Of a stretch of DNA of 41,847 nucleotides, positions 827 to 31,094 are shown piece by piece (position 1 is the stretch's first letter; each line of letters begins with the position of its first letter). The position numbers and the translations under genes were made by a program. Source of the stretch: Sanguibacter inulinus (GTDB taxonomy: Bacteria; Actinomycetota; Actinomycetes; Actinomycetales; Cellulomonadaceae); assembly GCF_013415325.1 (NCBI RefSeq), contig NZ_JACBYE010000039.1:1-41847 (forward strand), written 5' to 3'. The notes below the pieces were generated by a model. That model was not told where the DNA came from, did no database searches, and saw nothing but the letters and a program-made list of their open reading frames with translations.

Positions 827-854
827 AGATCGGTCGCAGCCCACCGGGTATGAG
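827..854 (-). promoter_or_regulatory. FliA/sigma-28-type promoter of cheA
   Basis: Minus-strand reading gives CTCA (854-851), a 16-base spacer and ACCGATCT (834-827). The same arrangement precedes five other flagellar units in this window. The -35 is preceded by ACAAAAC. A second CTCAT lies about 15 bases further upstream and GGGTGA lies at 875-880. Confidence 0.8.
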
Positions 855-944
855 GTTTTGTCACATGAGGCACCGGGTGACTCCGTGCTCGTGCGTCGCT
901 GGCGTGTCCCGCAGGACCGTCGCGCCGCGCCGAAGACGCTGGGG

Positions 945-950
945 TAGGGT
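945..950 (+). promoter_or_regulatory. Possible -10 element of csrA
   Basis: TAGGGT ends six bases before the csrA ATG. A TANNNT -10 at this distance would start transcription at or next to the ATG, giving a leaderless mRNA. The same bases contain AGGG, which could instead be a weak ribosome binding site. There is no clear -35. The sequence alone does not decide. Confidence 0.3.
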
Positions 951-956
951 CGTCGC

Positions 957-1265
957 ATGCTGGTGCTGAGTCGACGAGTCGGAGAGAAGCTCCTCATCGG
1001 CGACGACATCGTCATCACGATCATCGACACCCGCGGAGACGGTGTGCGGATCGGGATCGACGCCCCCCGCTCGATGCGCGTCAACCGCGCCGAGGTCGTC
1101 GAGGCCGTCCAGGCCAGCAACCTCGCCGCCGTCTCAGCCGACGACGACGCCCAGGCCGCGCTCATCGCCCTGGTCACCCAGGCCACACAGTCGGGGCAGT
1201 CGGCGCAGGCACCCGACGCCAGCACCCCCGAGACGACCCCGGACGAGGGCCCCTCCCCCGCCTGA
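957..1265 (+). CDS. csrA: Carbon storage regulator CsrA (translational repressor)
   Basis: CsrA is a small dimeric RNA-binding protein that blocks translation at GGA sites in mRNA leaders. In Gram-positive bacteria its main target is flagellin mRNA, and it is sequestered by FliW. Residues 1-55 are a canonical CsrA fold: MLVLSRRVGEKLLIGDDI, then VRIGIDAP and VNRAEV, with the RNA-binding residues Leu4 and Arg44 present. A tail of about 47 residues rich in Ala, Gln, Thr and Pro extends beyond the usual 60-75 residue length. It is divergent from cheA and far from fliW (34.0 kb), so the two regulatory partners sit at opposite ends of the cluster. Confidence 0.95.
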   Translation: MLVLSRRVGEKLLIGDDIVITIIDTRGDGVRIGIDAPRSMRVNRAEVVEAVQASNLAAVSADDDAQAALIALVTQATQSGQSAQAPDASTPETTPDEGPSPA

Positions 1266-1332
1266 CCGGCGCGCCACCCTCCTCGCTGCACAGCCTCGCG
1301 CCAGGAAGAACCGTCCCCCGGCGGACCTTCGC

Positions 1333-1338
1333 TAGGCT
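1333..1338 (+). promoter_or_regulatory. Probable housekeeping -10 element
   Basis: TAGGCT lies 27 bases before the ATG of the next gene, followed by a good ribosome binding site (AGGAGAAGAGG). A start about seven bases downstream would give a leader of about 20 bases. The -35 is not distinct, as is usual for GC-rich actinobacterial promoters. Confidence 0.45.
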
Positions 1339-1365
1339 GGACTGACAGCCAGGAGAAGAGGTCTC

Positions 1366-1725
1366 ATGATCGCCGACGACAAGGGCGCGGTGCCCCGCGG
1401 GTACAGGTTCGCCGACCACGTCCCCTATGACACCCCGGACGATCTCTCCGAGCTGCAAGGACCGACGTCCGGCATCGTCCGCGTGGGGCCGCACATCGAC
1501 ACCAGCCAGGACCCCACCTATCACCTCGCGGACGCCAGCGACCTGATCGCGTTGTACTCAGCGGTCGTCCGCGCCGGTTCGGCCGACGACCACCGACGCC
1601 TCCTGGACCGAGCCACGCTCGAAAGGCTGTGGCCAGACCTCGTGCTGCCACACAGGTGCCGCGAGACCTGGACCGCGCACTTCCCGCGCCTGCGCACCCT
1701 GGGCCTGCGGGCCCTGAGCATCTAG
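1366..1725 (+). CDS. Conserved-looking hypothetical protein, 119 aa
   Basis: I do not recognise this family. The protein is soluble, with no signal peptide or membrane segment. It starts MIADDKGAVPRGYRF, and its middle reads HLADASDLIALYSAVVRAGSA, followed by a basic, Trp-containing C-terminal half with several predicted helices. The start is supported by AGGAGAAGAGG seven bases upstream and a TAGGCT -10. Codon use is G/C-rich at third positions, like its neighbours, which supports real coding. It lies between csrA and the convergent end of the fliM-flhA operon; a flagellar role would be guesswork. Confidence 0.7.
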   Translation: MIADDKGAVPRGYRFADHVPYDTPDDLSELQGPTSGIVRVGPHIDTSQDPTYHLADASDLIALYSAVVRAGSADDHRRLLDRATLERLWPDLVLPHRCRETWTAHFPRLRTLGLRALSI

Positions 1726-1779
1726 CCCGGTGCGTCCCTTCCACGAGCGTCTGGCGCGTATCGGCCTAGCGGCGACCAC

Positions 1780-1810
1780 CTGAGCGACGTCAGGTAGTCC
1801 CGTCGCTCAG
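1780..1810. terminator. Bidirectional hairpin between convergent genes
   Basis: CTGAGCGACG (1780-1789) pairs with CGTCGCTCAG (1801-1810), a 10-bp stem with an 11-base loop. An alternative stem, ACCTGA/TCAGGT, lies inside it. The right arm contains the stop codon of the FlhF-like gene. There is no T-run, as is usual in high-GC genomes. Confidence 0.5.
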
Positions 1811-3279
1811 TCCCAGGCGGGGTCGTCGAGGTGCTCGTCGAGCAGGGCCGCCCAGACGAGGGCCGAGGCCGCGAAGCCGTCGAGCAGACCGACAGGCACA
1901 CCGAGCTCGAGGATCGCCGCGGGCTGCGAGGTCGACGAGACGTTGCGGGCCGCGAGCGCGTCGAAGGGCCGGTGCTGGCCGACGGCCGTCATCCAGCGGC
2001 GGGCGTCGGCGAGGCTGCGGTCGGCCTCGACGACGGCCCACACCTGGTCCGGGTCGAAGGACGCGACGAGCGACGACGCGATGGTCCAGTCGGAGGCGTC
2101 GGCCCCGACGCCGAGGGCGACCACGAGCGGCGCCTCGGACTCGACGGTCGCCGCGCGGAGCCTGCGCGCGGACATGCCGGTGATGACCCACGGCCCGTAG
2201 CCGGTCTGCGGGTCGAGCCTCCCGGCGAGGGCGATGCCGGAGTCGGGCACGCCGATGCGTCGGGCGATGAGCCGCGCGGCCTCGACCACCTGCTCACCCT
2301 GCCCGGCGACCACGACGACCGAGGCGGGCTCGCGGACGACGGCGGGTGCGCGCGGGACCTTCGAGAGGACCTGCGACAGGGGGTACGTCCCCTGCCCTGC
2401 CGGCAGCTCGGAGAGCAGCCGGCGCGGGACGCCGACCTGGAGCAGCTCGGGGATGCTCGCACCCGTGGTGCGCACGACGACGAACTCGGCGGGTCGCACC
2501 TCTTTGTCGAGCACGACCGGGGTCGGGCCTGACGGGGTGGTCTTGCGGGCCCAGGGGTTGCTGCGCCGGGCCGAGGTCTGGCCGAGCGGTGGGGCGACCG
2601 GGGGCGTCGGCGCTGCCGAGACCGGACCGCCCGTCGCTGCAGCCCCGAAGGCAGCAGCCCCGGCAGCTGCGGTGCCACCCGAGGCTGCCGCGGCAGCGCC
2701 GAGCCCCGTGGCAGGTCCGGCGGTGGCGGAGGCCGCCGCGGCGGCCGCGGCCTCGTCGGCCTGGCGGGTCTCGGAGGCGAGCTGGCGCACCGAGTCGAGG
2801 ATCGAGGCGAAGGTGTCCTGCTCGGTCGAGACGGGGGCGATCTCGTCGTCCGCGCTCTCCCCGCGCGGGGCGCCGTGCCTGTCGGCGGCGTCGGCGGCGG
2901 CGAGGAGCGCGTCGATCCCCACGGGCTGCACCTCGGCGGTGCCCGCGTCGACCTCCGCGCGGCGGGCCGCGTCGTCACCGCCGCTCCACCGGGCGGCAGA
3001 CCCGGGCACAGTGCCCACAGACCCGCCACCCGCAGACCCGCCGCCTGCGGAGCCGACAGGCCCGCGGCTGCCCGGCGTGACGAGCGGCCCCGGGACGTAG
3101 GCGACCTCGTCGGGGACCTCGACGGTCAGCTCGAAGCGTTCTTTGGCGAAGAACCCGGCGACGCCGCCGGTCCGCACGCGCTCGGCCTTGACCACCTTGG
3201 CGGTCGGGCCGATCTCGCCGTGGACCCGGACGATGAGCGCCTCGAGGTCGGTGCCCTCAAGCAGCAATCGCTTCGACAT
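1807..3279 (-). CDS. FlhF-like protein with degenerate GTPase domain, 490 aa
   Basis: Position after flhA and the N-terminal motif (KRLLLEGTDLEALIVRVHGE, then a GPTAKVVKAERV-type strand) match the B domain of FlhF, the SRP-type GTPase that places flagella and recruits FliF. A long Ala/Gly/Pro-rich linker (about 75-290) follows. The last 175 residues keep the layout of the FlhF G domain: a hydrophobic strand VVVVAG, a late strand VWAVVEADRS, and an ending like the FlhF stretch before its final helix (LGVPVGLLDGF). However, the P-loop is replaced by AGQGEQVVEAA (about 325-335), with no GKT/GKS. GTP binding is therefore unlikely. The ATG at 3279 has GGGGG nine bases upstream; a TTG at 3288 would add three residues. 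The gene overlaps the end of flhA. The homology is my reading of the pattern, not a search result. Confidence 0.65.
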   Translation of the reverse strand: MSKRLLLEGTDLEALIVRVHGEIGPTAKVVKAERVRTGGVAGFFAKERFELTVEVPDEVAYVPGPLVTPGSRGPVGSAGGGSAGGGSVGTVPGSAARWSGGDDAARRAEVDAGTAEVQPVGIDALLAAADAADRHGAPRGESADDEIAPVSTEQDTFASILDSVRQLASETRQADEAAAAAAASATAGPATGLGAAAAASGGTAAAGAAAFGAAATGGPVSAAPTPPVAPPLGQTSARRSNPWARKTTPSGPTPVVLDKEVRPAEFVVVRTTGASIPELLQVGVPRRLLSELPAGQGTYPLSQVLSKVPRAPAVVREPASVVVVAGQGEQVVEAARLIARRIGVPDSGIALAGRLDPQTGYGPWVITGMSARRLRAATVESEAPLVVALGVGADASDWTIASSLVASFDPDQVWAVVEADRSLADARRWMTAVGQHRPFDALAARNVSSTSQPAAILELGVPVGLLDGFAASALVWAALLDEHLDDPAWD

Positions 3280-5317
3280 CGCGGACAACCCCCACAGCCT
3301 CGATCTTCACACCGGATCCGGTGACCTCGGAGTATGACATCACGGGGGCCTCGCCGTGGTGCGTGGCCACGAGCGAGCGCAGCGCGGGCCGCAGGGCCGG
3401 TGCGCAGACGAGCACGACGTCGACGCCCTGGCTCTCGGCTGCGGCGCGACCGGCCGCGAAGGACCGCAGCATGGCCTCGAGCCGGTTCGGGTCGAGCAGG
3501 ATCTGCGTGCCCTGCTCCCCCGGGCGCAGACCCTCGAGGAGCGCCTGCTCGAGCACGGGCTCGAGGGTCATGACGCGCAGCACGCCCTCGTGGGTGTGCG
3601 CGGCGGTGAGGGCGGGGGCGAGCTGGAGGCGGGCGGCCTCGACGAGCCCCTCGGCGTCGGTCGAGATCTTGGCGCGCAGGGTGAGCGCCTCGTAGATGCG
3701 CCCGAGGTCGCGGATCGGCACCTGCTCGGAGAGCAGGCGCTGCAGCACGCGCTGCACCTCGCCGAGGGACAGCAGCCCGGGCACGAGCTCTTCGACGACG
3801 GCGGGGTTGACCTGCTTGACGCCCTCGGTGAGCACGCGGACGTCCTCGCGGCTGAGCAGCCTGTCGGCGTTGCTCGCGATGACGTTGGACAGGTGCGTGA
3901 TGAGCACCGACACCCGGTCGACGACGGTTGCTCCCGTCATCTCCGCGGCGAAGCGCATCTCGGCGGGCACCCACTTGCCGGCGAGACCGAAGACGGGCTC
4001 GTGCACCTCGCTGCCGGGCAGCGAGCCGAGGTCGTCGCCGAGGGCCAGCACACGGCCGGGCGGCACCTCGCCGCGCGCGGCCTCGACACCCGAGATGCGC
4101 AGCACGTAGGTGGACGGTGGCAGCTCGACGGAGTCGCGGGTGCGGACCGGCGGGACGACGATCCCGAGGTCGAGGGCGACCTTGCGGCGCAGTCCGCGGA
4201 TGCGGGCGAGCAGGTCGTCGTCGGAGCCCGAGCTCACGAGGTCGACGAGGTTCGGGGCGAGCAAGATCTCGAGGGCGGAGACGCGCATCTCCTCGATGAG
4301 CTTCTCGGGGGTGTCGGCCACAGGCGCGACGGTCTCCCGGATCGCGGCGTCGAGCTTGGCGTCCTGCTCGGCCTTGGCGTCGCGCGCCTTGATGCGCTGC
4401 GCGCCCAGGAGCAGCGCGGCGCCGACGAGGATGAAGGGCAGCTTGGGCATGCCGGGCAGCAGGGCGAGGGCGATCGCGGCGCTCCCCGCGATGAGCAGCG
4501 AGTTGCGCGACTGCGACAGCTGCTTGGACGCCGAGCTGCCGAGGTCGGAGTCGGCGGTGGCCCGGGTGACGATGAGGCCGGTCGACACGGAGAGCAGCAG
4601 GGCCGGGATCTGGGTGACGAGGCCGTCGCCGATGGTCAGCAGCGAGTACGTCTCGACGGCCTCGCCGATCTCCATGCCGCGCTGCATGAGGCCGATCGCG
4701 ATGCCACCGACCAGGTTGATGATCGTGATGATGATGCCGGCGATCGCGTCGCCCTTGACGAACTTCGAGCCACCGTCCATCGCACCGTAGAAGTCGGCCT
4801 CGGCGGCGACGTCGGCGCGGCGCTGGCGTGCCTGGTCTTCGGTGATGAGCCCGGAGTTGAGGTCGGCGTCGATGGCCATCTGCTTGCCGGGCATCGCGTC
4901 GAGGGTGAAGCGGGCGCCGACCTCGGCCACACGGCCGGCACCGTTGGTGATGACCACGAACTGGATGACCACGAGGATGAGGAAGATGACGAGGCCGATG
5001 ATGAGCGAGCCGCCGACGACGAAGTGGCCGAAGGCACCGATGACCTCGCCCGCGTAGCCGTCGCGGAGCACGAGGCGGGTCGAGGCCACGTTGAGCCCGA
5101 GCCTGAACAGCGTCGCGATGAGGATGAGCGAGGGGAACACCGAGAAGTCGAGCGGCCGCTGCACGTACATCGTGGTGAGCAGGATGACCAGCGACATGAC
5201 GATGTTGACGACGATGAGCACGTCGAGCAGCATCGCGGGCAGCGGGATGACCAGCAGCATGACGATGCCGACGACACCGACAGGGACCGCCAGCTTGGCG
5301 AGGTCACGGTTCTTCAT
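3257..5317 (-). CDS. flhA: Flagellar type III export gate protein FlhA
   Basis: FlhA forms the nonameric ring of the flagellar export gate and couples ion flow to secretion. The length of 686 residues is normal for the family. Residues 1 to about 310 hold a run of membrane segments (LAVPVGVVGIVMLLVIPLP and following). The conserved cytoplasmic loop is present: RFTLDAMPGKQMAIDADLN, then ITEDQARQRR and DFYGAMDGGSKFVKGDAIA. The C-terminal half is the soluble chaperone-docking domain, with DPNRLEAMLRSF near the end. The ATG at 5317 overlaps the flhB stop by four bases (ATGA), indicating translational coupling. Confidence 0.97.
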   Translation of the reverse strand: MKNRDLAKLAVPVGVVGIVMLLVIPLPAMLLDVLIVVNIVMSLVILLTTMYVQRPLDFSVFPSLILIATLFRLGLNVASTRLVLRDGYAGEVIGAFGHFVVGGSLIIGLVIFLILVVIQFVVITNGAGRVAEVGARFTLDAMPGKQMAIDADLNSGLITEDQARQRRADVAAEADFYGAMDGGSKFVKGDAIAGIIITIINLVGGIAIGLMQRGMEIGEAVETYSLLTIGDGLVTQIPALLLSVSTGLIVTRATADSDLGSSASKQLSQSRNSLLIAGSAAIALALLPGMPKLPFILVGAALLLGAQRIKARDAKAEQDAKLDAAIRETVAPVADTPEKLIEEMRVSALEILLAPNLVDLVSSGSDDDLLARIRGLRRKVALDLGIVVPPVRTRDSVELPPSTYVLRISGVEAARGEVPPGRVLALGDDLGSLPGSEVHEPVFGLAGKWVPAEMRFAAEMTGATVVDRVSVLITHLSNVIASNADRLLSREDVRVLTEGVKQVNPAVVEELVPGLLSLGEVQRVLQRLLSEQVPIRDLGRIYEALTLRAKISTDAEGLVEAARLQLAPALTAAHTHEGVLRVMTLEPVLEQALLEGLRPGEQGTQILLDPNRLEAMLRSFAAGRAAAESQGVDVVLVCAPALRPALRSLVATHHGEAPVMSYSEVTGSGVKIEAVGVVRDVEAIAA

Positions 5318-6552
5318 GCTCGGGCCTCCGAGAGGGTGGACGTCCCCGGTGCGGGGTCGGTGTCGGGCTGCGGGTCAGGACTGTCTGCGGGGCGCGCTGT
5401 GCGCGACGCCCGGGTGCGGCGGGCCGGTGGTGGGCTGCCGGGAGGTGGTGCAGGGATCGTGGGGCCGGGCATGGTGCGGACCCCGTCGGTGCTGCCGCCG
5501 CGGCGCTTGAGCGCCATGACGAAGGCGAGCACCTGGGCGACGGCCGCGTAGAGGTCGGCCGGGATCTCCTCGCCGATCTCGCACGCGCCGTGCAGCGCAC
5601 GGGCGAGCGGGACGTCGGAGATCATCGGGACCTTCTTCTCGGCGGCGACCTCGCGGATGCGGGCCGCGACGTGCCCGGCCCCCTTGGCGACGACCCGCGG
5701 TGCGCCGGTCCCCGCCTCGTACTTGAGGGCGACGGCCACGTGGGTCGGGTTGACGAGCACCACGTCGGCGTCGCCGACCGAGGCGATCATGCGGTTGCGG
5801 CTCATCGCGATCTGCTTGGAGCGGATGGCGCCCTTGAGCTGCGGGTCACCCTCGGACTGCTTGTTCTCCTGCTTGACCTCGTAGAGGGACATGCGGGTCT
5901 TCTTGCGGTTCCGCTTCATCACCACGACGAGGTCGAGCACCGCGAGCCCGAGACCGGCGGCGACGGCGCTCCACAGGAGCGAGGTGATGCCGCCCCCGGC
6001 TGCCGAGAGCAGCGCACCGACCGACAGACCGCCTGCGGTGAGCAGGACGGGCATGAGGTTCTGGACCGCGATGTACAGCACGGCGCCGACCACGACGGTC
6101 TTGGTGAGCGCCTTGACCCCCTGCCAGAGCGCCTGACCGCCGAAGGTGTTCTTGACACCCTTGAGCAGGTTGAACTGGTCGACCCTCGGCTTGAGCTTCT
6201 TGGTCGCGATGTGCAGCCCGCCCTGGGCGACGTTCGCGACGATCGCGGCGATCACCACGACGATGAGCATCGGCGTGACGCTGTCGAGGATCGAGTCGAG
6301 CCCGCGTCCGAGCAGGTCGACCACGACGAGGGGGTCAGGGTTCGCGACGACGTCACGGACCGCGCTCAGCTGGTCGACCGCTGCGGAGGCGCCGCGGCCG
6401 AGGACGACCGGGAGCATCACGGCGGCGGCACCGATCCCCAGCCACGAGCTGAGGTCCTGGGACTTCTGGAGCGAACCGTCCTTGCGGTTCTGCTTCATCC
6501 GTTTTGGTGTCGCCTGCTCGGTCTTCTCCCCCGAGTCCCCACCCCCGCTCAC
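5314..6552 (-). CDS. flhB: Flagellar export switch protein FlhB
   Basis: FlhB switches export specificity from hook to filament substrates after self-cleavage. The N-terminus (SGEKTEQATPKRMKQNRKDG) is the family signature, and four hydrophobic segments follow between about residues 40 and 212. The autocleavage motif NPTH is intact at residues 268-271 (VLVNPTHVAVAL). After the usual C-terminus (about residue 350) there is a tail of about 60 residues rich in Pro, Arg and Thr, longer than in typical FlhB. The start is a GTG that overlaps the fliR stop by four bases. Confidence 0.97.
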   Translation of the reverse strand: MSGGGDSGEKTEQATPKRMKQNRKDGSLQKSQDLSSWLGIGAAAVMLPVVLGRGASAAVDQLSAVRDVVANPDPLVVVDLLGRGLDSILDSVTPMLIVVVIAAIVANVAQGGLHIATKKLKPRVDQFNLLKGVKNTFGGQALWQGVKALTKTVVVGAVLYIAVQNLMPVLLTAGGLSVGALLSAAGGGITSLLWSAVAAGLGLAVLDLVVVMKRNRKKTRMSLYEVKQENKQSEGDPQLKGAIRSKQIAMSRNRMIASVGDADVVLVNPTHVAVALKYEAGTGAPRVVAKGAGHVAARIREVAAEKKVPMISDVPLARALHGACEIGEEIPADLYAAVAQVLAFVMALKRRGGSTDGVRTMPGPTIPAPPPGSPPPARRTRASRTARPADSPDPQPDTDPAPGTSTLSEARA

Positions 6553-7307
6553 GAGGTCACCCCGAGGACGGCGTCGAGCGACCGTCCGGTGAGGTTCTCG
6601 ATGATGCGCGGCAGCGCGAGGTACGTGAGCGAGGCGAGGCTGAGCGTGAGCAAGATCTTCAGCGGGAAGCCGAGCGCGAAGGCGTTGAGCGCCGGGGCCA
6701 CCCGGGTCAGCAGACCGAGCCCGACGTCGGCGAGGAACAGCACGACCACGAGCGGACCGGCGATCTGCAGGGTCGCGAGGAACATCCCGGTGACGCTCGC
6801 CGTGAGGGCGTCACCGAGCTTCGACAGGTCGAGGCTCGCACCGAGCGGGAGCGCGTCGAAGGTGCGCACCAGTCCGGAGATGACCATCTGGTAGCCGTCC
6901 GAGACGAAGAGGATCACGACGGCCGTGAGCTGGTACAGCCTGGCGAACTGCGCGCCGTTGACCTGGGTCATCGGGTCGAAGCCCTGCGCGAGCGAGAAGC
7001 CGCCCATGAGGTCGATGAGCGACCCTGCCGACTGCACGGCCGCGAAGACGACAGCGACGAGGAAGCCGAGTCCGACCCCGATCACGGCCTCGCCCACGAG
7101 GAGCACGACGTACTCACCCGTGCTCGCGGGCGCTGTGGTCACGACCCGGGGTGCGATGGCGAGCGCGAGACCCGTCGCGAGCATGACCTTCACGGTCGCG
7201 GGGATGCCGCGGTGCGAGAAGGGCGGTGCGACGACGAGGAAGGCGACCATGCGCACACCGACGAGCATGAGCGACTCGAGCGCGCCGAGGGAGAGGCTGA
7301 GGGTCAC
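6549..7307 (-). CDS. fliR: Flagellar export gate protein FliR
   Basis: FliR is a membrane component of the export gate core formed with FliP and FliQ. The 252-residue protein is almost entirely hydrophobic, with about six membrane segments. Family features include VRMVAFLVVAPPFSHRGIP near the start, the GFSLAQGFDPMTQV loop in the middle, and NAFALGFPLKILLTL toward the C-terminus. The start is a GTG four bases after the fliQ stop. Confidence 0.96.
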   Translation of the reverse strand: MTLSLSLGALESLMLVGVRMVAFLVVAPPFSHRGIPATVKVMLATGLALAIAPRVVTTAPASTGEYVVLLVGEAVIGVGLGFLVAVVFAAVQSAGSLIDLMGGFSLAQGFDPMTQVNGAQFARLYQLTAVVILFVSDGYQMVISGLVRTFDALPLGASLDLSKLGDALTASVTGMFLATLQIAGPLVVVLFLADVGLGLLTRVAPALNAFALGFPLKILLTLSLASLTYLALPRIIENLTGRSLDAVLGVTS

Positions 7308-7310
7308 CGG

Positions 7311-7583: not shown

Positions 7584-7588
7584 GGCCG

Positions 7589-10954: not shown

Positions 10955-10962
10955 GAAGAGCA

Positions 10963-10990
10963 CCATCGGCTCGTCCAGCGCGGGTATGAG
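10963..10990 (-). promoter_or_regulatory. FliA/sigma-28-type promoter of the fliM operon
   Basis: Minus-strand CTCA (10990-10987), a 16-base spacer, then GCCGATGG (10970-10963). The 13-mer AGGCACCGGGTGA (plus strand 10998-11010), just upstream of the -35, also occurs upstream of the cheA promoter (868-880). Transcription should start near 10957-10954, practically on the GTG chosen for fliM. Confidence 0.8.
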
Positions 10991-11149
10991 GAAAAGCAGG
11001 CACCGGGTGAAAAGAACTTCTCAGGTTGCGGCCCGGGGCCCCTCGTGGGCGTCCGTACCGCAGGTGCTGCGTCCCTCCCCTCGTCGTGCACGCGATGCGT
11101 CCACGAGAAGCACGAGGGTCGTGTGGCGCCCTCCATGGCGCCCCGACTC

Positions 11150-11167
11150 ACCGGCATCCGTGCCGGT
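11150..11167 (-). terminator. Hairpin after fliL
   Basis: ACCGGCA and TGCCGGT pair perfectly (7 bp) around a 4-base loop, 12 bases after the fliL stop. This separates the flbD-motA-motB-fliL unit from the fliM unit, which has its own promoter. The remaining bases to 10991 hold no gene that I can support. Confidence 0.5.
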
Positions 11168-13628: not shown

Positions 13629-13685
13629 TTGTTCATCCGTCCGTGGGGTGCTGCTAGAGGTCCGTCCATGAACCCGTCAGAGATC

Positions 13686-13713
13686 TCTTCGGCGGGTGAC
13701 CACGGGGTATGAG
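13686..13713 (-). promoter_or_regulatory. FliA/sigma-28-type promoter of flbD-motA-motB-fliL
   Basis: Minus-strand CTCA (13713-13710), a 16-base spacer, then GCCGAAGA (13693-13686). The -10 differs from CCGAT by one base but keeps GCCGA. The inferred leader is about 50 bases to the GTG at 13628. Confidence 0.75.
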
Positions 13714-13774
13714 GCTTTGCGGGGGGTGCTGCTGCGACCGCAGGCCGCGGTCCGTGCGGGCCCGGAGCAGCGCC

Positions 13775-24128: not shown

Positions 24129-24202
24129 GACTATCCCCACGTGATGGTGACTGATCGGCCGATCCATGGCCTCCTGCGCGAGCCTTCCTGGCTCGTAAAG
24201 CA

Positions 24203-24230
24203 CTATCGTCAGGTCCTCGCAACCCATGAG
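24203..24230 (-). promoter_or_regulatory. FliA/sigma-28-type promoter of the flgB-flgE operon
   Basis: Minus-strand CTCA (24230-24227), a 16-base spacer, then GACGATAG (24210-24203), preceded by GAGAAAACC. The promoter lies between the upstream FliT-like gene and flgB. Confidence 0.75.
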
Positions 24231-24235
24231 GGTTT

Positions 24236-24253
24236 TCTCACCCCCGGGTGAGA
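24236..24253. promoter_or_regulatory. Perfect palindrome TCTCACCC-CC-GGGTGAGA abutting the flgB promoter
   Basis: Two 8-base arms separated by two bases, ending six bases upstream of the -35 CTCA. The position suits an activator or repressor site. The half-site GGGTGA recurs at several other flagellar promoters of this window. No regulator is identified. Confidence 0.45.
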
Positions 24254-24265
24254 GGACCTGTTCTT

Positions 24266-24682
24266 TCACCCGACGGCGTCGAGGTACACCGCCGTCGTCG
24301 TGTCGTTCGTGCGCATGGAGCTGACCGCGCGCAGGTGCGCCCGAGCGGTGCTGGCGGCCTCTTCGAGCCGCTGCGTGAGCTCCAGCTGACGGTCGAGGAT
24401 CGTCACGGCGCGGTCCGCGAGACCGGCCGGGATCGGTCCGAGCCCGGCTGGCGGCGTCCAGGAGAGGTCGGGCAGCACGTCCGAGTCGTCGATCAAGAAC
24501 CCCGGGGCGACAAGAGCCTCTGCCTGGTCCATCGACCTGTCGAGCTCGTCGAGCGCGGCCTCCCACGCGGACCGCACGGGGGCCGGAGCCTCCGGCGGCG
24601 TGGAGACAGTCTCTGGTGCGGACACCAGCACAGGCACGAGAGCCTGCTCGGTCCGGTCGGCCGTGAGAGCCTCAGCCGACAC
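24266..24682 (-). CDS. FliT-like small protein downstream of fliS (138 aa)
   Basis: The GTG at 24682 overlaps the end of fliS by 11 bases and gives 138 residues. Two helical, charged segments are visible (AWEAALDELDRSMDQAEALV and ILDRQLELTQRLEEAASTARA), separated by a Pro-rich stretch (DLSWTPPAGLGPIPAGL). Size, helix content and the fliD-fliS-X order fit a FliT-type chaperone for the filament cap. I see no decisive motif, so the name is positional. The first 35 residues look disordered. Confidence 0.6.
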   Translation of the reverse strand: MSAEALTADRTEQALVPVLVSAPETVSTPPEAPAPVRSAWEAALDELDRSMDQAEALVAPGFLIDDSDVLPDLSWTPPAGLGPIPAGLADRAVTILDRQLELTQRLEEAASTARAHLRAVSSMRTNDTTTAVYLDAVG

Positions 24683-25133
24683 CGAGCACTCCCCCGGTCT
24701 GCTGCGGTGCACCGACCGTGGCCAGCTCGCCGGTCCGGCGCGTCGCGCCGCCGAGCTCGGCGGCGGCCTCGTGCCAGGCGGCCCGGAGCGGCTCGACGAC
24801 GGCCCGGCACTGCTGCGTGCGGTCGGCGTCGTGGGTGATGTTGGCCTGCACGAGCTCACCCATGAGGTGGGTGTACAGGGACTGCAGCGCCGGGCCGCCG
24901 GACCACGCCTCGACGTCGAGGGTGACCATCAGCTCGGCCAGGATGTCCTGCGCGTGCAGGAGCTGGACGTTCGCCTCGGCGGCGTCGCCCGCTCGCTGCG
25001 CCTTCTCGGCCCTGTCGAGGTCGAGGACCATGCGGTCGTACAGCATGGTCAGGAGGCGAGCAGGGGTGGCGCTGAGGACGGCATCGCTGAGGAACCGTGC
25101 GCGCTGTGCTTCGGAGCTCATCATGTTGCTCAT
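24672..25133 (-). CDS. fliS: Flagellin export chaperone FliS
   Basis: FliS binds the C-terminus of flagellin and keeps it unfolded for export. Family features: VLSATPARLLTMLYDRMVLDLDRA near the N-terminus, LHAQDILAELMVTLDVEAWSGG in the middle, and LQSLYTHLMGELVQANITHD. The C-terminal 25 residues are an Ala/Gly/Thr tail. The ATG has GAGGA five bases upstream. The 110-base gap to fliD holds no gene I can support. Confidence 0.95.
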   Translation of the reverse strand: MSNMMSSEAQRARFLSDAVLSATPARLLTMLYDRMVLDLDRAEKAQRAGDAAEANVQLLHAQDILAELMVTLDVEAWSGGPALQSLYTHLMGELVQANITHDADRTQQCRAVVEPLRAAWHEAAAELGGATRRTGELATVGAPQQTGGVLGVG

Positions 25134-25244
25134 GTGGTCCTCATCGGCAGCAGACCGGGCGGTGTGAGAGAAGCGGGAGACCGAAGATCGACTCCTCGTC
25201 GGGAGACCAGCCCGGGGCCGGACCGACAGAGCCGGCTGGGGGGG

Positions 25245-26627
25245 TCAGTTCCAGGTGGGCAGCGACGAGACCTGGCCGGCGAGCCAGCTCGACTGCGACT
25301 GGAGACCGCTGAGCGTCACCTCGAGCGAGGCGTAGGTCCGCTCGAGCCCGGACCTGCGGGTGGCCAGACGACGGTCCCAGTCGCTCACCTGCTCGGTGAG
25401 GTTCTTGGTGAACGACTCCTGGCTCTTGATCTTCTGCGTGAGGCTGCCGTCGATAGGGCTCGAGATCTTGGTCGCCGTCTCGGCCACCCGCTCGGCGAGC
25501 CCGGAGACGACCTTCTGGACCTTGGCCGGGTCGCTGGCGAGCGCTGCCGCGAACTTCTCGGGCTCGAAGGTGAAGGCACCGTCCTTGCCGAGGACGATCC
25601 CGACCTCCGAGGGCGAGATGCCGTCCACGGGGTAGGCGAGGGCCGAGGTGAGGGACTGCTGGATCCCGCGGGTCGCGCTGTCGCCCGAGAGCACACCTCC
25701 GGCGATGACCGTCCGGCCGTCGGCCGAGGTCGTCGTCGTGGTCGCGGTCCGCGAGGTGATCTCGGAGAGCACGACGCCCATCGAGCCGACGAGGTCGGAG
25801 GCGAGCTTGGTGAGGGCCGCGTCGTTGCGCGTGGTGGTCACGGTGACGGGTGCGGTCTCGAGGGCAGAGACCGTGAAGCTCACGCCGGTCAGCACGTCGC
25901 TGAAGGTGTTGCTCGCCGAGGTGACGGTCTGCCCGTCCCAGAGGCTGATGGCCGCGTCGGCCGAGGCCACCAGGGCTGCCGACCTCGAGACGACGAGGTC
26001 CGAGGCACCGGCTGCGAGGTCGTCCTTGGTGACGGTCCCGCGGTGGATGTCGAAGGCTGCGTCGTCTCCGGTCGCCTTGCCGGTGATCTGCAGGCGCGAC
26101 TCGGTCGGGGAGACCTTGACGACGCTCGCCGTGATGCCGGTCCCTGCGGTGTTGAGCTTGGTGGCCAGCCCGGCCAGGTCTGTCACGCCGGCGAGGTCGA
26201 CGGCGACCAGGGTCGGCTTGTCGGCGGGACCGGAGACGATCGTCAAGGAGTCGGGGACGCCGCCGGGGAAGTAGGAGTCGAGGTCGGTGACGTTGCCGCT
26301 CACCGAGGTCTGGGCCTTGGCCAGGCGGTCGACCGTGAAGCTCAGGGTCGAGGGCTGCGAGCCGGCGCTCGTGGTGACCTTGACGCTCGGCGCTGTCGAG
26401 ACGGCCGACGTGGCCTGCCAGGACGCGGGCTTCGCGGCGGTCTTGGCGACGTCGGTCAGCGACGCGACGCGGGTGTTGAGGCCCTGCAGCGCGGTGATGA
26501 AGGTCTGCGTGGTCGAGACCTTCTGCTTGAGCATGGTCTGAGGCATCGCCTCGACCTGCATCAGCTGGTTGATGAGGTCGCTCGTCTTGAGACCGCTGAT
26601 CATTCCGTCGATACCCAGGCTGACCAT
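25245..26627 (-). CDS. fliD: Filament cap protein FliD
   Basis: FliD (HAP2) forms the filament cap that folds incoming flagellin. The N-terminal domain reads LGIDGMISGLKTSDLINQLMQVEA, then TFITALQGLNTRVASL. The C-terminal coiled-coil part is ISSPIDGSLTQKIKSQESFT, then DRRLATRRSGLERTYASLEV. The length of 460 residues is typical. A GAGGAG ribosome binding site is seven bases from the ATG. No CTCA-N16-CCGAT promoter lies directly upstream, so it may depend on read-through from the flagellin gene past a strong hairpin. Confidence 0.95.
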   Translation of the reverse strand: MVSLGIDGMISGLKTSDLINQLMQVEAMPQTMLKQKVSTTQTFITALQGLNTRVASLTDVAKTAAKPASWQATSAVSTAPSVKVTTSAGSQPSTLSFTVDRLAKAQTSVSGNVTDLDSYFPGGVPDSLTIVSGPADKPTLVAVDLAGVTDLAGLATKLNTAGTGITASVVKVSPTESRLQITGKATGDDAAFDIHRGTVTKDDLAAGASDLVVSRSAALVASADAAISLWDGQTVTSASNTFSDVLTGVSFTVSALETAPVTVTTTRNDAALTKLASDLVGSMGVVLSEITSRTATTTTTSADGRTVIAGGVLSGDSATRGIQQSLTSALAYPVDGISPSEVGIVLGKDGAFTFEPEKFAAALASDPAKVQKVVSGLAERVAETATKISSPIDGSLTQKIKSQESFTKNLTEQVSDWDRRLATRRSGLERTYASLEVTLSGLQSQSSWLAGQVSSLPTWN

Positions 26628-26691
26628 TCGACGCTCCTCGTTCGGTGTGGCGGTGCGGTGCCCGCCAGGCGGCGCGCGGGTTCGTCACAGA

Positions 26692-26730
26692 CCGACGGCG
26701 GTGAGGGACGGTGTCCCTCACCGCCGTCGG
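26692..26730 (-). terminator. Very strong hairpin between flagellin and fliD
   Basis: An 18-bp perfect stem (starting CCGACGGCGGTGAGGGAC) closes on a 3-base loop, 65 bases past the flagellin stop. It is the longest perfect hairpin in the window. No T-run follows. It could be a terminator, a partial attenuator or an mRNA 3'-end stabiliser that makes flagellin much more abundant than FliD. Confidence 0.7.
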
Positions 26731-26794
26731 ATCTGCGGTACTGCGGTGGTGCTGTGCTGCTGTCGTGCGGTGGTGCTCGGTCAGTCAGACCGGA

Positions 26795-27967
26795 TCAACG
26801 CAGGAGCGAGAGGACGCCCTGGGGGATCTGGTTGGCCTGCGCGAGCATCGACGTGCCAGCCTGCGAGAGGATCTGGGCACGGGTGAAGCTGACCATCTCG
26901 GACGCCATGTCGGTGTCGCGGATGCGGCTCTCCGAGGCGGAGAGGTTCTCGACGGAGACGTTGATGTTCTTGACCGTGTGCTCGAAGCGGTTCTGCAGTG
27001 CACCGAGGTTGGCGCGAGCCGTCGAGACGGACGAGATCTTCTCGTCGATCTTCGTGATGGACGCCTGAGCAGCGGCGGCGGACGAGAAGTCCAGACCCTG
27101 CTGCGTGTTGGCGACCTGGTTGCCGGCGGCGAGGCCAGCACCCGGGGCGGTCACGTCGACGTCGCCGCCGTTGAGCGCCTTGACCGAGATGCCGGTCGCA
27201 GCACCGTTCGCGTCCTTGATCACGTCGACGCTGAAGTTCGCGTTGAAGTTCGCGTCAGCGGAGAGCGCGTCGGCGAGACCCTGGACCGAGGTCGGAGCAG
27301 TCGCGAGGGTGACCGCGATGTCCGAGGTGACGCCCGAGCCGTTGTCCACCGAGAAGGTGTACGCGGAGGCGGTGAGCGCAGCGGTCGAGACCGTGAACTC
27401 GGTGCCGCCGACGGCGAGCGATCCGGTGCTGAGGTCCGAGGCGATCGCCTTGATGTTGGCGCCCGACAGGTCCACCGTGATCTGGCTGTTGGCGTCGCCG
27501 TCAGCACCGACCTGGAACTGGAGCTTGCCCGAGCCGCCACCGGCGGTGCCGTCGAGGAGGTTCGTGCCGTTGAAGTTGGTGGACTTCGAGATGCGGTCGA
27601 GCTCCGACACGAGCTGGGTGGCCTCGGTGTCGATGTTCTTGCGAGCCTCGGCGTTGTTGGAGTCGTTACCAGCCTGGACGGCGAGGTCACGGACACGCTG
27701 GAGGATGGCGTGCGTCTCGGTGAGTGCACCTTCAGCGGTCTGCACGACGGAGATGCCGTCCTGAGCGTTACGAGCAGCGACCTTGAGGCCACCGACCTGC
27801 GAGCGCAGGCCCTCGGAGATCGCCAGACCGGCAGCGTCGTCAGCAGCGCGGTTGATGCGGAAGCCGGAGGAGAGCTTCTCCAGCGACTTGCTCAGGTCGT
27901 TCTGCGTGTTCGAGAGGTTGCGGTAGGAGTTGACTGCCGCGATGTTCTGGTTGATCGAGAGACCCAT
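26795..27967 (-). CDS. fliC: Flagellin
   Basis: Flagellin is the filament subunit. The N-terminal D0/D1 domain is canonical (MGLSINQNIAAVNSYRNLSN, then LEKLSSGFRINRAADDAAGL and NAQDGISVVQTAEGAL), and so is the C-terminal one (ARANLGALQNRFEHTVKNIN, then SRIRDTDMASEMVSFTRAQI and MLAQANQIPQGVLSLL). The central 150 residues are the variable, Ser/Thr/Ala-rich surface domain and a likely target for glycosylation. The ATG at 27967 follows GGAAGAAG. A leader of about 55 bases carries two CsrA-type sites. Only one flagellin gene is present in the window. Confidence 0.97.
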   Translation of the reverse strand: MGLSINQNIAAVNSYRNLSNTQNDLSKSLEKLSSGFRINRAADDAAGLAISEGLRSQVGGLKVAARNAQDGISVVQTAEGALTETHAILQRVRDLAVQAGNDSNNAEARKNIDTEATQLVSELDRISKSTNFNGTNLLDGTAGGGSGKLQFQVGADGDANSQITVDLSGANIKAIASDLSTGSLAVGGTEFTVSTAALTASAYTFSVDNGSGVTSDIAVTLATAPTSVQGLADALSADANFNANFSVDVIKDANGAATGISVKALNGGDVDVTAPGAGLAAGNQVANTQQGLDFSSAAAAQASITKIDEKISSVSTARANLGALQNRFEHTVKNINVSVENLSASESRIRDTDMASEMVSFTRAQILSQAGTSMLAQANQIPQGVLSLLR

Positions 27968-27978
27968 GATGTTCTTCT

Positions 27979-28017
27979 TCCGTGAGTGGGGCCGAGATGC
28001 GGCGCCCATCCGTGGGC
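27979..28017 (-). promoter_or_regulatory. Putative CsrA-binding sites in the flagellin leader
   Basis: Two ACGGA motifs lie in the 55-base leader. The upstream one is presented in the loop of a small hairpin (GCCC-ACGGAT-GGGC, 28017-28004). The downstream one (27983-27979) overlaps the purine-rich ribosome binding site of flagellin. CsrA recognises ANGGA, preferably in hairpin loops, and a pair with one site on the Shine-Dalgarno is the known layout at Bacillus hag. csrA and fliW are both in this window. Confidence 0.6.
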
Positions 28018-28028
28018 TGCCACCCGTC

Positions 28029-28056
28029 CTATCGGTACCCCCCAGGGGGGCATGAG
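28029..28056 (-). promoter_or_regulatory. FliA/sigma-28-type promoter of flagellin
   Basis: Minus-strand CTCA (28056-28053), a 16-base spacer, then ACCGATAG (28036-28029), the closest match in the window to the classical CCGATA -10. Upstream is an A-rich stretch (GAGAAAAT). Confidence 0.85.
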
Positions 28057-28086
28057 GATTTTCTCGAGAAGTTTTTCTCGGGTCTC

Positions 28087-29754
28087 TCAGGCGAGCGAGA
28101 CGAGGCCCGGGGCGACGATCTCGAGGTGCGAGGCGAGCTCCGCCTCGTGCTCCGGGGAGACGTCGGCGAGGGCCGCCTCGAGACCGGGTACGGCGCGCTC
28201 GTCGGAGTACACGTCGACGGCGATCGCCGCGGCGACAGCCCGCTGGCGGGGGTCCTGCGCCTCGTCCCGGCTCAGGGCGACGAGCGGGCAGCGCTCGGCG
28301 AGCCCGTGCGTGCGCAGCCGGACCGACCAGGCGACGGCCTCTTCGATGCTCAGCGCCGGCGCGAGCGCCGCACCGCACAGCAGGACGGAGACGTCCCCGG
28401 GTCGCGCAGCGTCCATCGCCTCGAGGAAGAGGCGCGCCGGGCGGCTCCCGTCGGAGACGGTCTGGAGCGCCAGGTCACCCCAGAGCGGGCCGTCGACCAC
28501 GGCGAGCAGGTCGGCGAGCGGACGGTCGGCGTCCCGGAACACCCCGACCAGCCGGGCAGGTGCGACCGACGGGAGTCCAGCAGCCGCAGCCCGGACGGCG
28601 ACCTCGGCCGCGTCGGCGGCGCGGCCGGCGGACAGCAGCGCCCACACCTCGACGGGGGCGAGCTCGGTCTTGCGGAACGGGACCTGCTGGTCGTCGACGG
28701 CGTGGGCGGGGATGAGGTCGAGCGTCTCGAGGGTGCGCGCGGCGTCCTGGCGGAGTGCCAGCACGTAGGCCTTGCGGGCGAGCGGACGGGCGGGGAGCGT
28801 GTCGAGGGCGAGCCACGCGTCGAGCAGCTCGTCGACCACCTCGTCTTGGCCGAGGGCGAGGGCCAGCTCGACGAGTGCGGGGACGAGGGCGACCGCCGCG
28901 TCGCGGGCCAGCAGCCCGCTGCCGAGCACGCGCCGTCCGAGCTCGAGACCTTCGGCGGTGTCACCGTGCAGGCCGAGAGACCTGGAGAGGTTGGCCTCGA
29001 GGACCGCGACCTGCGGTGCCGGGAGACCGTCCCGGCGCGCCGCGGCGACGTCGAGCCGGGCGAGGTCGAGGTTCCGGCGGGCCTTGCTGCGGTCGGCCAT
29101 CCGCTCGGTGAGGTAGCCGCTGTGCGCGAGCCGCGCCGTCGGGACGGGGGTCGCCGCGCGCAGGTCGGCGCCGGGGCGCGCGGCGACCATCTGCTCGTGC
29201 AGCCTGCCCGACCACGTGAAGGCACCGCGGAGGTAGAGCCGCACCGACGCCATGCTCTTGGTGACTGTCGCCTCTCCGACGCCGCCGCCCGCGACGTTGT
29301 CGACGAGCACGAGGTGGCAGCCGACGGTGGGGTCGAGGGCCGCGCGCACTGTCGCGGGGTCGCCCGAGAACACCTCGTCGGCGTCGACGGTGAGGACCCA
29401 GTCGCCTGTGGCGTGCTCGACCGCCCTGTTCCGGGCCGCCCCGAAGTCGTCGTCCCAGTACCCCTCGACGACGGTGCTCGCCCATGCCGAGGCGATCTCA
29501 CGCGTGCGGTCTGTCGAGCCCGTGTCGTAGACGACGATCTCGTCGACCCAGCCGAGGGCGGCGAGGGAGGCCTCGAGCACGTCTTCTTCGTCCTTGACGA
29601 TGAAGACTGCGGAGATCCGGCTCCCCGGGTGGCCCGTCGTGCTGTCGTGGCGAGCGGGCGAGGGGGACGCCGGCGCGGCTGGGGTGCGCGCCGCCCCGGA
29701 GGTGGACCGGAGCGGCGGCTGCGCTGGAGCGGTCTGGGTGTCGTCGTGCGGCAT
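28087..29754 (-). CDS. Family 2 glycosyltransferase with helical repeat C-terminus
   Basis: The N-terminal GT-A domain (about 45-250) starts RISAVFIVKDEEDVLEASLA and has the nucleotide-sugar motifs DTGSTD (77-82) and DAD (124-126), plus DDDFGAARNRAVEHATGDWV. The remaining 300 residues are Ala/Leu-rich helix pairs resembling TPR-type repeats (LGRRVLGSGLLARDAAVALV), as in GT2-TPR enzymes that glycosylate proteins. It sits directly upstream of flagellin and downstream of the flagellar sigma gene, so flagellin is the likely acceptor; this is inferred. The ATG at 29754 has CGGGAGCA seven bases upstream; a longer reading adds 20 residues. Confidence 0.85.
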   Translation of the reverse strand: MPHDDTQTAPAQPPLRSTSGAARTPAAPASPSPARHDSTTGHPGSRISAVFIVKDEEDVLEASLAALGWVDEIVVYDTGSTDRTREIASAWASTVVEGYWDDDFGAARNRAVEHATGDWVLTVDADEVFSGDPATVRAALDPTVGCHLVLVDNVAGGGVGEATVTKSMASVRLYLRGAFTWSGRLHEQMVAARPGADLRAATPVPTARLAHSGYLTERMADRSKARRNLDLARLDVAAARRDGLPAPQVAVLEANLSRSLGLHGDTAEGLELGRRVLGSGLLARDAAVALVPALVELALALGQDEVVDELLDAWLALDTLPARPLARKAYVLALRQDAARTLETLDLIPAHAVDDQQVPFRKTELAPVEVWALLSAGRAADAAEVAVRAAAAGLPSVAPARLVGVFRDADRPLADLLAVVDGPLWGDLALQTVSDGSRPARLFLEAMDAARPGDVSVLLCGAALAPALSIEEAVAWSVRLRTHGLAERCPLVALSRDEAQDPRQRAVAAAIAVDVYSDERAVPGLEAALADVSPEHEAELASHLEIVAPGLVSLA

Positions 29755-29885
29755 GGGTGCTCCCGAGATGGTCGTGTGCCATCCCATCGGCACCGACCCC
29801 GCAGGCATGAGCACGACCCGGGGTCCTGTGCCTGCCGAGACTCTGTCCCTGACGGAGCCCTGCGCCTGCTGCTCGGGCGAGCCGG

Positions 29886-30797
29886 TCAGCCGACGGCGAC
29901 GAGCGGGAGGTGCGGGGCCGGGAACCCGGCCGCTCCCTGGGGCACGCGGGGCGTCTCGCCCGTGGCGGTGCCGACAGCGCTGACGCCGGCCGCGACGGCG
30001 GTCGAGGCGTGCAGGCTGGCGCGCTCGGCGATCGCCGCGAAATAGCTCTCGCGGCGACGCTGTGCGACACCGTCGGGGGCAGCGGCGGCGGGGACCTGCG
30101 CGGGGTCGAGGTGCGTGTTGAGCCCGTCGCGCAGCAGCACCATGGCCTCGGCGCGGAGCTGGCTGACACGGGACTGGGTGACGCCCATGTCCTTGGCGAT
30201 GTCCGTGACCGTGCGGTCGTGGAAGAACACCTGCTCGACGACAGTGCGCAGACGCTCGGGGAGCGTGGCGACAGCGGCGTGGAGGTAGGTGAGGCGCTCG
30301 TCGAGGATGACCGACTCCTCGGGTCCGACCTCACGGGCGGGGAGGACCTCGGCGAGTGCGCCGTCGTAGCCCTCGAGGCTGAGGACGCGGGTGGCGGCCG
30401 CCTCGCGGGCGGTGTCCACCTCGGAGACGTCGACACCGAGGGCGAGGGCGATCTCGTCGCGGGTCGGCGCGCGGCCGAGGTCTGCGGTGAGCTCGTCGGC
30501 GACGGTGGTGAGCTTGCGGGCGCGCTGGCGGGCGCCGCGGCTGACCCAGTCCATCGAGCGGAGCTCGTCGACCATCGCGCCCTTGATGCGGATCGCGGCG
30601 TACCTGTTGAAGGGCACCCCGGTCGTCGCGTCGTAGGCTCGGGCGGCCTGGACCAGAGCGAGCGCTCCGGCGGACGCCAGGTCGTCTCGCGACACATGGC
30701 TGGGGACACGCATGAGCATCTCGCTCACGTGGTACCCGACCAGCGGGAGATTCTCGGTGACCAGACGTGCCTGGTCGGCGTCCATGGGGTGCGGCAT
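29886..30797 (-). CDS. fliA: FliA/WhiG-family flagellar RNA polymerase sigma factor
   Basis: This sigma factor should direct the CTCA-N16-CCGAT promoters of the window. Region 2 is clear: LVTENLPLVGYHVSEMLMRV, RDDLASAGALALVQAARAYD, FNRYAAIRIKGAMVDELRSM and DWVSRGARQRARKL. Region 3 is ELTADLGRAPTRDEIALALG. Region 4 is ATLPERLRTVVEQVFFHDRT, then VTDIAKDMGVTQSRVSQLRAEAM. About 70 residues follow region 4, an extension beyond the usual C-terminus. The start is taken as ATG 30797; no good ribosome binding site is seen, and ATG 30785 is possible. Its own promoter is not of the CTCA type. Confidence 0.93.
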   Translation of the reverse strand: MPHPMDADQARLVTENLPLVGYHVSEMLMRVPSHVSRDDLASAGALALVQAARAYDATTGVPFNRYAAIRIKGAMVDELRSMDWVSRGARQRARKLTTVADELTADLGRAPTRDEIALALGVDVSEVDTAREAAATRVLSLEGYDGALAEVLPAREVGPEESVILDERLTYLHAAVATLPERLRTVVEQVFFHDRTVTDIAKDMGVTQSRVSQLRAEAMVLLRDGLNTHLDPAQVPAAAAPDGVAQRRRESYFAAIAERASLHASTAVAAGVSAVGTATGETPRVPQGAAGFPAPHLPLVAVG

Positions 30798-31007
30798 GGC
30801 ACAACCATGCGGTGCGCACTCAGGTTTCTTCAAGGCTTTGACAAACGTTTTCACCCAGTAACAACCACGTGACCTCCACAACAGCAATGGGGAGAACTAC
30901 CCATGGGGGTCCCCACCGCCCCACCTTGCGGGCTCGGCCGGGTCGTGGATCGGCCTCTGACCTGCACAGACACAGTCTCATCCTCGCCAGGAGCCCATGG
31001 GTACCCC

Positions 31008-31013
31008 TAGGCT
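31008..31013 (+). promoter_or_regulatory. Possible housekeeping -10 upstream of flgN
   Basis: TAGGCT, the same hexamer as before the 1366 gene, about 190 bases upstream of flgN. It could give flagellar-sigma-independent expression of flgN-flgK-flgL-fliW. No clear -35. Confidence 0.3.
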
Positions 31014-31019
31014 GAGAGG

Positions 31020-31094
31020 ATGCCGGAGGGTGAAATGACTCACCCTGCTGCTCACGACGAAAACCTCATGGTGCGGTGCGAGCGTCCGATGTGA
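31020..31094 (+). CDS. Doubtful 24-codon leaderless ORF
   Basis: An ATG lies six bases after TAGGCT, so a transcript from that -10 would begin on it. The frame runs 24 codons (MPEGEMTHPAAHDENL...) to a TGA at 31092-31094. Third positions are often A or T (GGT, GAA, ACT, CCT, GCT), unlike real genes here, and the frame covers the flgN promoter. It is probably not coding. Confidence 0.1.
   Translation: MPEGEMTHPAAHDENLMVRCERPM
31027..31046. promoter_or_regulatory. Inverted repeat AGGGTGA-N6-TCACCCT upstream of the flgN promoter
   Basis: Two perfect 7-base arms separated by six bases, ending 18 bases before the CTCA -35. It uses the same GGGTGA half-site as the flgB palindrome, with the arms in the opposite relative orientation. 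Function unknown; it may be an operator. Confidence 0.4.
31065..31092 (+). promoter_or_regulatory. FliA/sigma-28-type promoter of flgN-flgK-flgL-fliW
   Basis: CTCA (31065-31068), a 16-base spacer, then TCCGATGT (31085-31092), preceded by GAAAAC. It is the only member of the set on the plus strand. The leader to flgN is about 100 bases. Confidence 0.8.

Follow-up and report, generated by a model that had tools for sequence, protein, structure and literature searches.

The flagellar gene cluster of Sanguibacter inulinus (Cellulomonadaceae) raises the question of which promoters drive it and which sigma factor reads them. The DNA analysed here, called the window, is one entire contig (C42, NZ_JACBYE010000039.1; 41,847 nucleotides) and makes up about 1% of the 4.26-Mb genome. 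A preliminary description of the window listed six FliA promoters ahead of flagellar transcription units, each with a CCTCAT -35 box, a spacer of exactly 16 bases and a classical sigma-28 -10 element, together with a sigma gene in the same cluster. We estimate at roughly 90%, from sequence evidence, the probability that these six sites and a seventh in front of fliS act as promoters for RNA polymerase that carries a FliA-type sigma factor, whose gene lies at 29886-30797 of the minus strand. This gene, whose product contains Sigma70 regions 2, 3 and 4 (Pfam), does lie within the cluster, as described.

The pattern CCTCAT-N{12,16}-NCGAW has exactly six matches in the window, and their letters, positions and uniform spacing are as previously reported. 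The spacing is 16 bases at all six, the longest of the five allowed, and every site has three consecutive A or T within the 6 bases before CCTCAT. The -10 element reads NCCGAW at five sites, close to the sigma-28 sequence GCCGATAA, and GACGAT at flgB. The genes 3' of the sites were identified by Pfam as cheA, fliM, flbD, flgB, flagellin and flgN, which bears out their placement before flagellar units. The predicted promoter of cheA (CCTCAT-N16-CCGAT, 36.5 bits in the scoring matrix) is located at 829-855, that of fliM at 10965-10991, where the GTG start codon follows GCCGAT at a distance of 10 bases, and that of flbD at 13688-13714; by gene order, the last would also serve motA-motB-fliL. The predicted promoter of flgB (24205-24231) would extend, again by gene order, to the basal-body and hook genes as far as flgE. 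The predicted flagellin promoter is at 28031-28057. All of these are on the minus strand, and the predicted promoter of flgN, followed in gene order by flgK-flgL-fliW, is on the plus strand at 31064-31090. The six sites score 31.0-40.0 bits with a matrix that they helped to train.

Matches of this kind could arise from coding sequence and base composition in a GC-rich genome and have no promoter function. The core pattern has 36 matches genome-wide, 30 of them outside the window. The flanks were compared for 24 of these 30, and by our own reading 18 of them fall within a frame that is free of stops and has a third-position GC of at least 0.85. Nevertheless, the six matches within 1% of the genome correspond to a Poisson P of 2e-6, and shuffled windows contained 0.45 matches on average and three at most, so that none of 100 shuffles reached six. 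The shuffles made by our own scripts were first-order Markov samples rather than exact dinucleotide shuffles. None of the 24 compared matches has the A/T run before CCTCAT that is present at six of six window sites, and the best of them scores 15.5 bits, against at least 31.0 bits in the window. The motif was also found de novo before orthologous genes across genera. An origin in coding sequence or composition is therefore extremely improbable. The preliminary description would have given up its reading if many equally good matches existed elsewhere in the genome. This is the case for the core, which is unspecific by itself, but not once the A/T tract is counted in the 24 of 30 matches compared.

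The conservation of the sites was evaluated upstream of orthologues located by tblastn in the flagellar regions of relatives. Orthologue hits that started after query residue 15 (set for a hand-made score) or 12 (set for the de novo search) were dropped, as were upstream regions shorter than 80 bases and duplicates, the removal of which took the de novo set from 318 to 302 regions. Near relatives were retained and are not independent; the FliA of genome G019, for instance, is 90% identical. The de novo search, an expectation-maximisation over 220 upstream bases with no motif supplied, returned AA..cCTCATa-N15-CCGAT from 32 Sanguibacter regions, aA...cTcA-N17-CCGAT from 136 regions of other Cellulomonadaceae and CTAACg-N14-GCCGATAGc from 62 regions of Microbacteriaceae. 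A divergent clade of the same family gave CAC-N15-GCCGA(G/C)AGT (30 regions, some without a site). The CCTCAT box stands at all six window sites, but not as a fixed word in relatives, where the first C and the final T vary around a conserved TCA core. The distance from the -10 element to the start codon is also kept. It measures 1-13 bases at fliM (11 of 15 genomes), 52-81 at flbD (20 of 22), 71-88 at flgB (22 of 25) and 56-70 at flagellin (22 of 26). By the hand-made score, 95 of 115 upstream regions had their best match at a spacing of 15 with a value of 14 or more; this score is loose, as 60% of shuffled regions reach the cut-off of 14 and a small bonus is given for the spacing of 15. The de novo search is the stronger evidence of conservation.

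The predicted regulon extends beyond the six sites that had been listed, all of which are present in the sequence. The seventh predicted FliA promoter, TCTCAC-N15-GCCGAT, is positioned at 25143-25169 on the minus strand, 9 bases before the ATG of fliS, and the distance is the same in six of six Sanguibacter genomes (the matrix was trained on flagellar sites). A weak candidate, GCTCAT-N15-GCCGAT, precedes the glycosyltransferase gene (29786-29812, minus strand; 16.5 bits). Elsewhere in the genome, 7 of 12 chemoreceptor open reading frames (ORFs) have a match above the 99th percentile of shuffles. Among 35 other genes, only two do (P 4e-4 in a Fisher test), and both had entered the sample through the pattern search itself. 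The chemoreceptor ORFs evaluated were 12 of the 13 family matches in this genome, 10 of 17 in G019, 4 of 9 in G082 and 1 of 12 in G016. In a separate locus of this genome (L069), a plus-strand chemoreceptor ORF from about position 922 is preceded by TAAA-N15-GCCGAT, which looks canonical and has a p of 0.14 with the TCAT matrix; its reader may be a WhiG-type sigma factor.

Two sigma factors of the genome come into question as readers of the sites. The best NCBIfam match of the cluster sigma is FliA_WhiG (TIGR02479) at about 174-175 bits, below the cut-off of 189.6, and its matches in the Protein Data Bank include 6pmi and 1rp3, both named FliA. A second, WhiG-type sigma, encoded at 42106-42783 of contig C12, fits the same model better, with 257 bits, above the cut-off. 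A -10 element of GCCGAT is common to FliA and WhiG, which also counts for the WhiG-type protein as the reader. The distribution of the two genes among 200 genomes of the family points the other way. Cluster-type FliA, counted at E of at most 1e-40, is present in 102 genomes, the C12-type sigma in 112 and both in 86, according to a comparison of the genome lists. Of the 16 genomes with FliA but without the C12-type sigma, nine belong to the divergent clade, and each of the other seven has a motif match before at least one flagellar gene (counted without a shuffle control). Conversely, 26 of the 112 genomes with the C12-type sigma have no cluster-type FliA. The motif is kept in relatives that lack the C12-type sigma, so that this protein was rejected as the sole reader and the cluster FliA is the better candidate. 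Recognition of these promoters by the WhiG-type sigma is very unlikely.

The -35 box had been described as different from the TAAA of other bacteria. The letters do differ, but probably not the kind of element. The E. coli sigma-28 consensus is given as TAAAGTTT-N11-GCCGATAA, in other words TAAA, 15 bases and the -10 element (PMC2859248). The Sanguibacter sites read TCAT, 15 bases and NCCGAW, which is the geometry of TAAA-N15-GCCGATAA, with the 15-base spacing at all six. Over 183 scored sites from Cellulomonadaceae and some other bacteria, the -35 tetramer starts with T in 178, has C in 146, T in 22 and A in 15 at its second position and A in 169 at its third, and takes any base at the fourth. 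AT-richer genomes have TAAA, TAAT, TAAG and TTAT (L128, L129, L163). The letters are mixed in L118 and L119, where the best windows are partly out of register, and the cheA sites of three AT-richer genomes retain TCA (L235-L237). Because TCAT aligns with TAAA at equal spacing and AT-richer relatives read TAAA, TAAT or TTAT, the -35 box is probably not a separate kind of element, and the view of CCTCAT as unrelated to TAAA was rejected on the same grounds. It looks like the usual sigma-28 element, except that variation is accepted at the second base. There, C becomes more frequent as the GC content rises (Spearman 0.50, 49 loci, P 2e-4, a value that ignores kinship and repeated genomes), which suggests that the TAAA element may have been altered in step with base composition.

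The putative recognition helix of the sigma factor varies along with the promoters. Where the helix pattern was found, T(Q/E)SR(V/I)SQLR accompanies TCA/CTCA promoters. THSA(V/I)SQ accompanies TAAC/CTAAC in 17 of 24 Microbacteriaceae rows, the remainder being missed by the pattern, and (G/S)HSTVSH accompanies nCAC...GCCGA(G/C)AGT in nine of nine. The helices follow the sigma tree, so that the match between helix and promoter rests on about three lineages and is not statistical proof. The FliA of the divergent clade (L133, L134, L135, L221-L226), which has the GCCGA(G/C)AGT dialect as its own, is about 45% identical and groups in the tree with the FliA of Microbacteriaceae and Arthrobacter, a placement that calls for caution about long branches. 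The TCA, TAAC and nCAC dialects provide three natural pairs of sigma factor and promoter for the study of DNA reading by region 4.2.

Based on these observations, a mode of recognition can be proposed. Region 4.2 of the cluster sigma would read the -35 element, with TCA as the core and the full CCTCAT at the six sites, perhaps aided by the A/T tract directly before it. Region 2 would read the -10 NCCGAW at the canonical sigma-28 distance of 15 bases from the TAAA equivalent. Gene order could place under these sites the cluster's genes for the motor, export, basal body, hook, filament and chemotaxis, and the many chemoreceptor genes elsewhere that carry a site may belong to the same regulon. 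The de novo motif, the fixed spacing, the conserved distances to the start codons and the 7 of 12 chemoreceptor ORFs support the reading of the sites as FliA promoters.

Several results weigh against it. The core alone is not unique to the window, given its 30 matches outside, and the scoring matrix was trained partly on the window sites themselves. Five of the 12 chemoreceptor ORFs of this genome have no site, and two of the seven matches fall within the ORF as its start was set. Among the evaluated chemoreceptor genes of the relatives, the site is present in 4 of 10, 3 of 4 and 0 of 1, and it also occurs at 2 of 17 other genes beside the chemoreceptors of this genome and its relatives. The matrix scan found no FliA site before fliA in this species. 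The de novo search gave no sigma-28 site in Micromonosporaceae (nine regions) or Arthrobacter (12 regions). Finally, the changes in sigma factor and promoter track the same tree. Even so, both the earlier observation and its interpretation as a FliA regulon are upheld, with corrections to the kind of -35 element, to the letters of CCTCAT that vary and to the list of sites, from which fliS was missing. The result is a rule by which promoters of flagellar genes can be read throughout Cellulomonadaceae.

In other lineages, comparable letters appear with differing clarity. In 13 Micromonosporaceae loci, CTCA-N15-17-NCCGAW occurs at 21 places, some of them coding-like, and by eye the matches are promoter-like only in Dactylosporangium and Virgisporangium. 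In Cellulomonadaceae loci such as L121, L122, L131 and L154, CTCAAG, about 16 bases and then CCGA were seen by eye before fliA. CTCAAG/CTTGAG is present in 24 of 37 regions upstream of fliA in this family, where 1.5 are expected, and this enrichment suggests that fliA may be autoregulated outside Sanguibacter.

The upstream regions contain another signal. Of the words over-represented before the FliA sites, GGGTGA/TCACCC is one of the most enriched. TCACCC boxes are positioned upstream of the cheA (875-880), fliM (11005-11010) and flgB (24246-24251) promoters, all on the minus strand, and an inverted pair, GGGTGA-N6-TCACCC, lies upstream of the flgN promoter (31028-31045, plus strand). A GGGTGA box is located 59 bases upstream of the fliA start (30851-30856, minus strand), and such a box occurs 55-59 bases upstream of fliA in six of six Sanguibacter genomes. 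In regions other than those of flgB, the word occurs in 9 of 26 from Sanguibacter (expected 1.3) and in 23 of 103 from other Cellulomonadaceae (expected 4.7). The enrichment and the conserved box before fliA would fit an alternative in which another activator, for example one that binds GGGTGA/TCACCC, has the main part in starting flgB, fliM and flbD, the early operons, while FliA adds to their transcription. However, no regulator of the box is known, its orientation and distance are variable, and it is present in just 2 of 21 flbD regions. To the eye, part of the signal at flgB resembles the Gly-stop terminus of the gene before it, and Microbacteriaceae show no enrichment of the word (5 of 43 regions, against 2.1 expected). 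We consider a leading role of such an activator in the early operons doubtful, if a serious contender; for the late units, it is compatible with transcription by FliA. TcrA of Actinoplanes binds direct repeats of GCA(A/C)CCG with 4 bases between them (PMC12691653), and the likeness of this site to TCACCCG is only a lead.

If FliA reads the seven sites, the regulon would comprise early (flgB, fliM) as well as late (flagellin) genes, all of which are preceded by predicted sites. A search of the genome for FlgM (PF04316) with E values allowed up to 1 returned nothing, although a very divergent FlgM would escape it. The absence of FlgM from later actinobacterial classes has been published (PMC10746217 and PMC4255298). 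Since FlgM was not found and sites precede early and late genes alike, flagellar transcription is probably single-tier. For the aer promoter of E. coli, transcription was mapped to start 6 bases after the -10 octamer (PMC2859248). The -10 elements of fliM and fliS are 10 and 9 bases from their GTG and ATG start codons, so that, by analogy, the transcripts of both are probably nearly leaderless.

Three other leaders contain candidate sites for the RNA-binding protein CsrA, whose site is described as GGA in a six-base hairpin loop (PMC7652899). Within the 110 bases before each start codon, we looked for loops of 5-7 bases that begin with A-x-GGA and are closed by at least four pairs. Such hairpins are present in the leaders of flagellin (gccc-ACGGAT-gggc, 28004-28017), flgB (ggcc-ATGGATC-ggcc, 24157-24171) and flbD (gggttc-ATGGAC-ggacct, 13658-13675), all on the minus strand; the one of flbD is not the minimum-energy fold in this species. 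An ACGGA at the presumed Shine-Dalgarno sequence of flagellin (27979-27983, minus strand) forms a second CsrA-type site. The hairpins are kept across most Actinobacteria examined, in 74 of 84 flagellin, 65 of 70 flgB and 19 of 26 flbD leaders (shuffled means 2.4, 1.8 and 1.0). They are found in 1 of 18 fliM, 0 of 12 cheA and 4 of 92 flgN leaders (5 of 122 together; shuffled means 0.3, 0.3 and 2.6), and in 1 of 28 chemoreceptor leaders and 1 of 44 leaders of other genes. Close to the start codon, at a distance of up to 20 bases, A-x-GGA occurs in 79 of 84 leaders of flagellin (the one in the window included), 23 of 26 of flbD, 35 of 92 of flgN and 6 of 12 of cheA; near the starts of cheA and flgN it is probably the Shine-Dalgarno sequence. 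The arms vary with pairing retained, a result that leans this way because the hairpins were selected for pairing. AxGGA hairpins are not rare as such: the window contains 25 on both strands, one of them upstream of fliD. The leader folds are not clearly more stable than shuffles (z of -1.07 for flagellin, -0.83 for flgB, +1.48 for flbD and -0.68 for cheA), so that the case for the hairpins is based on conservation and not on stability. Between the cheA promoter and start codon there is also an inverted repeat, GACGGGTAG..CTACCCGTC, at 798-817 of the minus strand, the arms of which are altered in L227 and L228 yet by eye mostly still pair.

The leader loops fit the CsrA site, which makes the three transcripts candidate CsrA targets. 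The gene csrA is present in the window beside cheA (957-1265, plus strand), as is fliW (34020-34406, plus strand), and csrA occurs in 91 of 102 family genomes with FliA and in 1 of 98 without it. In B. subtilis, CsrA together with FliW controls hag (PMC6529632). We speculate, with the odds against it, that the FlgM checkpoint is gone and that its work has passed to RNA. FliA would switch on early and late units together, and CsrA, which FliW would bind or set free according to the export of flagellin, would order assembly through the leaders of flagellin, flgB and flbD-mot, while fliM, fliS, cheA and flgN would escape this control, the first two because their transcripts have almost no leader. 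Hairpins of the flgB and flbD leaders were not met in a limited literature search and could still have been published. The part of the analysis that deserves experiments is the set of CsrA-type hairpins, predicted for early as well as late transcripts. Their presence on three of the seven units makes the ordering of assembly without FlgM testable in flagellated actinobacteria.

The gene content of the window is that of a flagellar cluster. The minus strand encodes cheA, which is truncated by the contig end and carries an Hpt domain (Pfam), followed by flhA, flhB, fliR, fliP, fliO, fliN, fliM, fliL, motB, motA and flbD. Next are flgE, flgD, fliK, an NlpC/P60 protein, fliI, fliH, fliG, fliF and fliE, and then flgC, flgB, fliS, fliD, flagellin, the glycosyltransferase and the FliA-type sigma gene. 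The plus strand encodes csrA and, separately, flgN, flgK, flgL, fliW and an HDOD protein. Start codons are mostly the first ATG or GTG of the open frame or were taken from alignment. No Rfam family matched the window at gathering thresholds.

The arrangement in Sanguibacter can be compared with four known systems. It shares with E. coli, as far as the sigma-28 promoters in PMC2859248 are concerned, the -10 GCCGAT, the 15-base spacing between -35 tetramer and -10 element, and the sigma family. It differs in a -35 of TCAT instead of TAAA, in sites that precede early genes too and in that no FlgM was found. The Hag-FliW-CsrA system of B. subtilis (PMC6529632 and PMC7652899) has in common with it csrA and fliW, a hairpin with GGA in the loop and a GGA near the flagellin start; here, predicted hairpins are also present in the flgB and flbD leaders, and again FlgM was not found. 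WhiG of Streptomyces and its orthologues (PMC4255298) belong to the same sigma family. In contrast to Streptomyces, Sanguibacter has a separate FliA-type sigma in its flagellar cluster and a WhiG-type gene elsewhere. A further likeness is to Actinoplanes missouriensis, another flagellated actinobacterium, in which FliA-type promoters reportedly read CTCA-N15-17-GCCGAA, a report that our analysis neither confirms nor denies. The CTCA -35 and the CCGAA or CCGAT -10 are the same as here; the six Sanguibacter sites may differ in their single spacing and strict CCTCAT. Given this resemblance, the promoter class itself is of an already known type, to which Sanguibacter adds a further case.

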